A stretch of DNA of 64,000 nt from a virus, in IMG/VR virus record IMGVR_UViG_3300036771_000036, positions 1 to 64,000 of that record; one strand, given 5' to 3'. The position numbers and the translations under genes were made by a program. Below are positions 49,890 to 51,951 of the stretch, one piece after another. Positions within the stretch are counted from its first letter, which is position 1. Every line of letters starts with the position of its first letter. The notes beneath the pieces were generated by a model. The model did no database searches, had not been told where the DNA came from, and saw only the letters and a list, made by a program, of their open reading frames with translations.

Positions 49890-50048
49890 TTGATATTTAA
49901 AGATGCTGAGATCACACTAGATACACCTGAGAAAGTGGAACTGTTCAATAAATTGTTACACGAAAAGGGAAGAGTAAATGAAGATTTGATTCAAAAAATC
50001 AAAAATACACCTGCTATCCCAAGAAGAAAGAAGAGGGAGGTGACCTAA
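49890..50048 (+). CDS. 52-aa charged peptide upstream of Dit
   Basis: MIFKDAEITLDTPEKVELFN, then a basic helix ending PRRKKREVT. TTG start eight bases after GGGAG. Its end contains the GGAGGTGA used by the next gene, and its TAA abuts the predicted AUU start there. Confidence 0.5.
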   Translation: MIFKDAEITLDTPEKVELFNKLLHEKGRVNEDLIQKIKNTPAIPRRKKREVT

Positions 50049-50651
50049 ATTACAGTACGCGACTCCCTCTACTTCTCCTTTGCTGGTGTTAAATCCGTTG
50101 ATTACGGAATCCTTAATGTCAATCTAAGCAGTGGAATGCAAGAAGATATATTCTTTCCTTCACGAGAAATCATCGAAGAAAAAGTTAAAGGTAATGATAA
50201 GCCATATTTTATGCGGACTGAGACTGAGCCATTAAAGTTTTCAGTCTCTTTTGCGTTTGAGGAAACTTGGAACACGGAAAAAATACGAGAAGTTGCTCGA
50301 TGGCTTACACAGCACGACTATTATCAAGAGCTTTACTTTGTTAATGAAGATGGATTAGGATCTGAACGAATATTCTATGCAATGTTTGTTGAAGACTCAA
50401 CTCTTATTCACAATTGTCTCAAAGAAGGATACATCAATCTAACGGTGCGTTGTGACTCGCCTTATACATATTCCCCTATTATGACTTCTCGTCTATATAC
50501 TTGGGATTATGCTCCTGTTGAATTTGCTTATTCCGATTTCTCGCAAGGTATTAAACAATCCACAGTCGTTAACACACAAGGGCAACTTACACTAAATCCA
50601 TATAAGCCAAAATGGTTAGATTATAAAGGCAAGAAGTGGTCTGAAATCTAA
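50049..50651 (+). CDS. distal tail protein (Dit), predicted AUU start
   Basis: 200 aa. The N-terminus MTVRDSLYFSFAGVKSVDYG, then ILNVNLSSGMQEDIFFPSRE, and later RCDSPYTYSPIMTSR are typical of the SPP1 gp19.1-like distal tail family that forms the ring between tube and tip. A TAA precedes codon 1 directly and the first ATG is codon 30, inside the conserved domain. GGAGGTGA lies five bases before ATT, so AUU initiation is strongly implied. Confidence 0.75.
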   Translation: MTVRDSLYFSFAGVKSVDYGILNVNLSSGMQEDIFFPSREIIEEKVKGNDKPYFMRTETEPLKFSVSFAFEETWNTEKIREVARWLTQHDYYQELYFVNEDGLGSERIFYAMFVEDSTLIHNCLKEGYINLTVRCDSPYTYSPIMTSRLYTWDYAPVEFAYSDFSQGIKQSTVVNTQGQLTLNPYKPKWLDYKGKKWSEI

Positions 50652-50668: not shown

Positions 50669-51304
50669 ATGTCCACTGAAACAACTAAGTTAAAACTTAA
50701 GATTCCCTCTTTTACCGATGAAATTGAAAGTACTATACGAGAGCTTGGAACAAACTTCATAATGCTCGACGATATTTCAGATGATTATGTTACAGAGATA
50801 CCAACAAGCGGGGATTTCCTGATCAAAAAACGATTATATAATGACATTCCTGTTGTCGGTAAGTATGTAGGTTGGGTTAACACTCGCACTGGCAAAGCGG
50901 CTCCTAAGTGGCAACGCCTTAAATCTTACAAGAATGGCGACTACATTGTACCAGATGTTGATAATGGTCATGTTTATATCTGTATTCAAACAGGATATTC
51001 CGGTTATACGGAACCAATCTTTCAGGTTTCTTCAGGCATTGAATTTAACGACACTCGCTTAGCTAGTGGGTGGGCTGCTACAACTCAATATAAACTCAAT
51101 GACATCATACTGCCGACAATTGATAATGGTCGCTTTTACTTGTGTATTCAAGCAGGAGAGTCAGGAAACATAGAACCAACATGGCAACAAGTAGATGGGG
51201 CTACAACATATGATGGGAATGCGTCATGGGCTGGCTATCGTATTACAAAATGGAAAGAAGCTGGAGCCGCAGCATTCTTCAGACCATTTGGAAAGATCGA
51301 ATAG
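50669..51304 (+). CDS. tail protein with duplicated carbohydrate-binding-like module
   Basis: 211 aa. Two repeats of ~60 residues: YKNGDYIVPDVDNGHVYICI and YKLNDIILPTIDNGRFYLCI, each followed by a G-E/T-EP motif (GYSGYTEPIF / GESGNIEPTW). This looks like a chitin-binding type (CBM5/12-like) fold used on phage tails. AAAGGAG precedes ATG. Probably a small receptor-contacting baseplate protein. Confidence 0.65.
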   Translation: MSTETTKLKLKIPSFTDEIESTIRELGTNFIMLDDISDDYVTEIPTSGDFLIKKRLYNDIPVVGKYVGWVNTRTGKAAPKWQRLKSYKNGDYIVPDVDNGHVYICIQTGYSGYTEPIFQVSSGIEFNDTRLASGWAATTQYKLNDIILPTIDNGRFYLCIQAGESGNIEPTWQQVDGATTYDGNASWAGYRITKWKEAGAAAFFRPFGKIE

Positions 51305-51312
51305 GTGCTACT

Positions 51313-51951
51313 ATGACTACATGGAATTCACTTATCAATTTAAAGGGTCACTATACTTCAGAACCCCTCCCTGTTACCGCTGAGGCAGACAATGTAATTA
51401 CTAAAATATCTTGGATAAGTAGTTCTCCTACTGGATCAAATGTCACCATACAAACTAGACTCAGTAAAGATGGCGTCAATTGGACTGAGTGGCAGAACTG
51501 TATTAATGGTGCTCACATTCCTGATATCACAGAAGAAACTTCCACTTACAATACTAAGATTATGTTCCGAGTTCTCATTAATTCCTCAAGCTATGACATT
51601 AAACCTTCCTTTACTAAAATCACACTCTATTATGAACCAGTCCTTGTCTTTGATAATAAAGGGGATATGAACTGTTCGCCTGAAATATGGATTACCAAGC
51701 AAGGAAATGGAGATTTCAGCATAGTAAATACTTCTCACAACAATGATGAGTTCAAGTTCACTAACCTGATCCACGATGAGACTGTGTACGTTGACAATGA
51801 AAAACAAGACATTGAAACGTCTTTAGCAGTTACTTATCGCTACAAAGACTTTAATGACAATTATCTCTCTTTTCCTATAGGTAAAAATATACTTAGGGTA
51901 ACTGGAGACGCCGAAATCAAATTTAGATATCAATTCACATTATTACAATAG
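51313..51951 (+). CDS. tail baseplate protein
   Basis: 212 aa, beta-rich, beginning MTTWNSLINLKGHYTSEPLP; TRLSKDGVNWTEWQNCINGA is the kind of segment found in discoidin-like or Dit C-terminal domains. ATG 51313 follows AGGTGC weakly and lies eight bases after the previous stop. Precise role not determined. Confidence 0.55.
   Translation: MTTWNSLINLKGHYTSEPLPVTAEADNVITKISWISSSPTGSNVTIQTRLSKDGVNWTEWQNCINGAHIPDITEETSTYNTKIMFRVLINSSSYDIKPSFTKITLYYEPVLVFDNKGDMNCSPEIWITKQGNGDFSIVNTSHNNDEFKFTNLIHDETVYVDNEKQDIETSLAVTYRYKDFNDNYLSFPIGKNILRVTGDAEIKFRYQFTLLQ

Follow-up and report, generated by a model that had tools for sequence, protein, structure and literature searches.

Where does translation of the distal tail protein (Dit) begin in a Paenibacillus-type phage whose dit gene offers no NUG codon until codon 30? 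The question is raised by a 64,000-nucleotide stretch of viral DNA (the window), for which an initial annotation proposed that dit almost certainly starts at an AUU lying directly after an in-frame stop codon, and that this is unusual for a structural protein made in quantity.

The start of dit in the window

The start region was read directly as ...AGAGGGAGGTGACC TAA ATT ACA GTA CGC GAC TCC CTC TAC TTC... (Table 1). This reading bears out the proposed layout, with ATT immediately after the TAA and no NUG before the ATG at 50136; codons 2-29 contain no ATG, GTG, TTG or CTG. The only ATC among them, codon 21, has no Shine-Dalgarno sequence (SD). Starts further upstream are excluded in the window because the in-frame TAA directly precedes the ATT. 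The 51-amino-acid upstream frame that this TAA closes has no PHROG match, and no homologue in viral contigs.

The ATT is an AUG-adjacent codon, and lies behind the extended SD GGAGGTGA, from which it is separated by CCTAA (50044-50048). The spacing, measured in the alignment from the end of GGAGG to the start codon, is 8, which is optimal. When both strands of the window were scanned for SD-like sites, 50049 was the sole position where an SD match of at least 8 nt opens a frame of at least 50 codons at a non-NUG codon. The conjunction of SD and non-NUG start at this position is not due to chance. Nor is the ATT a sequencing error, because homologues in independent contigs have ATT at the same place. 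The position of the SD, the lack of alternative starts and the conservation of near-cognate codons in homologues together give strong support to the proposed start, and on this comparative evidence Dit translation very probably begins at the AUU at 50049.

Table 1. Features of the dit start region and its surroundings, in window coordinates
Feature	Position	Strand	Remarks
Small putative upstream frame	49893..50048	+	TTG start, 51 aa, same frame as dit
Extended Shine-Dalgarno GGAGGTGA	50036..50043	+	-20.8 kcal/mol with 16S 3' end
In-frame TAA	50046..50048	+	Ends 51-codon upstream frame, abuts AUU
dit (yomH-like) CDS	50049..50651	+	ATT start (very probable), 200 codons + stop; homologues align from residue 1
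AUU start codon (very probable)	50049..50051	+	33/33 clade homologues have ATT, ATC, ATA, CTG, ATG or GTG; aligned SD spacing 8
First in-frame ATG (Met-30), rejected start	50136..50138	+	SD pairing only -1.9 kcal/mol
Downstream gene, PHROG head decoration-like	50669..51304	+	ATG start; control family; NUG start in 61/61 homologues

Identity of the gene product and its neighborhood

The identification of the 200-amino-acid product as Dit is supported by sequence comparison and, more tentatively, by structure comparison. It matches PF20195 (DUF6558) at 6.5e-9, above the family cut-off, and PHROG 33 'distal tail protein Dit' and PHROG 202 Dit at 2.3e-13 and 1.2e-5 respectively. A model of the protein has moderate confidence (pLDDT 66), and its best Foldseek matches are the Dit proteins of TP901-1 and SPP1, with probability 1.00, E values from 2e-3 to 1e-2 and TM scores of about 0.4. 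A sequence search of the PDB with the Dit profile gave no match. The nearest annotated relatives include YomH-like proteins of Brevibacillus phage Sundance and SPbeta-like phages, while the closest dit loci, at 74-76% identity, include Paenibacillus barcinonensis and prophage-like contigs.

Tail genes are usually, if not by strict definition, arranged in the order TMP-Dit-Tal (PMC7291167). The window departs from this, in that TMP (36581) adjoins Tal (43431) and Dit lies about 3 kb downstream of Tal.

The protein belongs to the same distal tail protein family as SPbeta YomH and SPP1 gp19.1 Dit, but differs in that the DUF6558_C domain is encoded by a separate gene in the window. The domains of the YomH type are thus split, with DUF6558 at 50049-50651, DUF6558_C in its own gene at 51313-51951, and another gene in between. 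The mechanically called ORF for the DUF6558_C gene (51226-51951) starts too early; its homologues start at an ATG equivalent to 51313. Homologues in phi3T and SPbetaL1 start at TTG, in contrast to the AUU of the window. In phi3T (locus L093, KY030782.1, phi3T_23) the annotated yomH start is around 19 codons late, and a TTG behind GGGGGTGA lies at the homologous start.

Start codons of dit homologues

We collected 136 dit loci from viral contigs, phage records and Paenibacillaceae genomes, of which 114 were left after removal of near-duplicates. Their start codons are ATG in 58, TTG in 18 and GTG in eight; the remaining 30 loci have a near-cognate codon (ATT 16, ATC 6, ATA 6, CTG 2), where three loci with a GTG inside the SD (L109, L113 and L114) were called by SD strength and counted as ATC. 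The near-cognate starts are tightly placed, with an aligned spacing of 8 in 28 loci and 9 in two, compared with a range of 4 to 13 for NUG starts. The proposal that the start is unusual holds for bacterial and phage genes generally, but not for dit, where about a quarter of the homologous loci begin in this way.

Since the calling rule skews the Leu and Val codon counts when all loci are taken together, we used for these only the clade in which residue 1 is fixed by alignment. This is the larger clade of the window (n = 33), where codon 1 is ATT in 13, ATG in eight, ATC in six, ATA in three, CTG in two and GTG in one. It is in every case ATG or a single-nucleotide neighbor of ATG, and the Leu and Val codons are CTG, CTG and GTG. 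Near-cognate starts account for 24 of the 33 and are held across long branches. On a Dit protein tree built without codons 1-3 there are at least ten changes between the near-cognate and NUG states, and 33 changes among the seven codon states.

The codons upstream of the start are not conserved among homologues. Five loci, among them the nearest relatives of the window (L002, L003, L004, L012, which comes from P. barcinonensis CECT 7022, and L096), share no related DNA with it upstream, and still GGAGGTGATTTGG followed by ATT is found at the same residue. Comparing codons 2-29 of the window with those of L002-L004 and L096, there are 11-13 changes at the third position, 4-6 at the first and three at the second; by this measure these codons evolve like coding sequence. 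The comparisons point to a mode of initiation that has been conserved rather than to an error.

Upstream alternatives were considered locus by locus. In the window a TAA directly precedes ATT, and in L015 and L100 it directly precedes CTG, so that upstream starts are excluded in these two relatives as well. Upstream NUG codons are blocked or out of frame in the window, in L015 (a stop follows) and in L017 (out of frame). An in-frame TTG or ATG lies 15 nt upstream in L002-L004 and L016-like loci, overlapping the SD and having no SD of its own, and many relatives have a GTG within the dit SD, again with no SD of its own. An upstream NUG may serve as the dit start in some individual relatives.

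Two further features of the dit leaders were observed. In L015 and L017 a four-codon frame, ATG GAG GTG RTY TAA, shares bases with the SD, and its stop codon either adjoins the CTG or ATT or falls 1 nt short of it. In L002, L003, L004 and L016-L019 a hairpin resembling a terminator (AAAGCC...GGCTTTTTT) precedes the SD by some 20-40 nt.

Strength of the Shine-Dalgarno interaction

Of 36 gene starts of the window that were compared, dit has the SD predicted to form the most stable duplex with the 16S tail, the next strongest being -18.1 kcal/mol. Its value of -20.8 kcal/mol was reached at none of 3000 random window positions and none of the 35 other gene starts. Among the homologues the median pairing energy is -19.8 for near-cognate starts and -14.0 for NUG starts (p = 8e-9), and within the clade the corresponding values are -20.0 and -14.1 (p = 7e-5), where both p values ignore relatedness. 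The correlation between SD and codon is not significant once corrected for relatedness by an independent-pairs test on the tree, which had too few pairs. There are also exceptions, in that L020, L021, L033 and L045 have a near-cognate codon with a weak SD. Comparison of the loci shows the position of the start, the strong SD and the conservation of the near-cognate class of codon.

Start codons of other genes

The same calling rule found no near-cognate start in 61 homologues of the gene directly downstream of dit. There was none among 58 for the second gene downstream, where seven starts were ATG without a measurable SD, and none among 23 for a gene of 384 amino acids. Tal gave two in 46, a CTG in L013 behind AAAGGAGGTG and apparently an ATT in L022. 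In the gene for a PAAR-like protein of 157 amino acids, four of 25 starts were near-cognate. All four are ATC at residue 1 (L014, L026, L104 and L105), behind the SD-like AAGGATGTGA or AAGGAAGTGA, and in L104 an in-frame TAA lies immediately 5' of it; in other phages the gene begins at ATG. The four phages with the PAAR-like ATC start begin Dit at ATG. No other gene of the window has the pattern of SD with near-cognate codon. Across the genes compared, near-cognate starts are therefore concentrated in Dit, with a second case, the PAAR-like gene, in sister phages.

Near-cognate initiation in other systems

The infC gene, known for autoregulation, provides a host parallel. In three Paenibacillus-group genomes it has an ATT start behind GGAGGTGG with a spacing of 9, as judged by the reading frame and the N-terminus known for InfC, and therefore the presumed hosts use AUU starts. 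The infC of the likely host group resembles dit in its AUU start, with GGAGGTGG ahead of it at a similar spacing. However, infC is a host gene, whereas dit is a structural gene of a phage, and its start codon differs from one relative to another. A second IF3-like gene lies beside infC in the Paenibacillus-group genomes L145, L146 and L147. Gene 26 of phage T4, which encodes a baseplate protein, has an internal AUU start. This is again AUU in a phage tail-structure gene, but the start is internal, it yields a shorter second product, and the phage is unrelated.

In Staphylococcus aureus, AUU and AUA starts with an extended SD have been mapped by ribosome profiling, and give around 10% of the expression of an AUG reporter, rising to as much as 30% for ccpN in rich medium (PMC13009471). 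As in dit, extended pairing between SD and anti-SD serves a near-cognate codon in cvfC1 (AUU), ccpN (AUA) and citZ (AUA), and the near-cognate starts of cvfC1 and ccpN are conserved among species (PMC13009471). These are cellular genes whose starts were demonstrated by Ribo-Ret and reporters, whereas that of dit is predicted from sequence. Escherichia coli pcnB is described there as having a translationally limiting AUU start (Binns and Masters 2002, as cited in PMC13009471); it shares the AUU with dit and differs as a cellular gene of E. coli. Near-cognate initiation with an extended SD is of a known kind, exemplified by infC, pcnB, cvfC1 and ccpN. The literature searched, which takes in few of the subscription journals, contained no description of a phage Dit gene with a near-cognate start. 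As far as that literature goes, the novelty lies in finding such starts commonly and conserved in the structural gene of a phage, at a site that moves between AUG, GUG and UUG on the one hand and four near-cognate codons on the other.

Alternative explanations

Initiation at Met-30 would leave the 29 upstream codons untranslated. Met-30 is the first NUG codon and the methionine is nearly invariant, but it lacks an SD; protein-level conservation extends through the 29 codons, codon 1 is where the homologues that use ATG, GTG or TTG begin, and a start at Met-30 would leave a very strong SD serving no gene. We reject this start as extremely improbable. We give equally little credence to readthrough or bypass of the TAA, fusing the 51-codon upstream frame to Dit. 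That frame shares the phase of Dit and its last codon is codon -1, but its product has no homologue among the viral contigs, and the nearest homologues have different upstream DNA that lacks such a frame; this too was rejected. Termination on the same frame could instead be followed by reinitiation at the abutting AUU, and the TAA-ATT of the window and the TAA-CTG of L015 and L100 would suit this. The frame is again without a found homologue, and in L002-L004, L016, L024, L097 and the majority of the other loci the start has no stop next to it, making reinitiation improbable, if less so than the preceding two.

A more serious alternative accepts the AUU as real but denies it a purpose. A very strong SD might make the codon almost irrelevant, allowing drift among AUG-adjacent codons. 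Codon types do switch often, as with the ATG of L029 inside an ATT/CTG group, and L025 combines a strong SD with ATG. On the other hand, near-cognate starts persist over the long branches of the window's clade, and some occur with a weak SD (L020, L021 and L045). Most of these observations can also be explained by neutral drift under a very strong SD, the principal rival to a selected low rate of initiation; we regard such drift as quite possible, at a little under an even chance.

Initiation mechanism and dosage of Dit

If Dit is initiated at the AUU, the very strong SD helix at optimal spacing would hold the 30S subunit on the dit start. Initiator fMet-tRNA could then start on a near-cognate AUU, AUC, AUA or CUG, codons at which IF3 would otherwise block most initiation, and Dit would begin fMet-Thr-Val-Arg-Asp-Ser. 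By analogy with the systems described above, fMet-tRNA should read the AUU at a reduced rate, and such a reduced, IF3-sensitive rate might keep Dit scarce.

Dit has been described as a ring of six subunits at the tip of the tail (PMC7291167). The suggestion that it is made in quantity is not supported by this description, and as few copies should be needed a weak start is not paradoxical. Low output would be compatible with the role of Dit. However, scarcity alone need not demand a weak codon, because ATG is the start used in the window by other tail-tip genes, Tal among them. That the near-cognate start limits the dosage of Dit is, on these analogies, an evenly balanced proposition. It is rather unlikely, though conceivable, that the start is a selected gate on tail assembly, in which Dit would be kept low and IF3-dependent, the codon would be balanced against the SD, and the gate would have moved to the PAAR-like AUC gene in the sister phages. 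If that were true, the gate would limit Dit, the partner of TMP and Tal in the complex from which tail assembly sets out.

Gene finders that accept only NUG starts will truncate or extend genes like dit. A single orthologous phage start site occurs naturally as AUU, AUC, AUA, CUG, AUG, GUG and UUG, with the strength of the SD varying alongside, and the dit family provides a natural series in which the trade-off between SD and start codon can be tested in Gram-positive bacteria.
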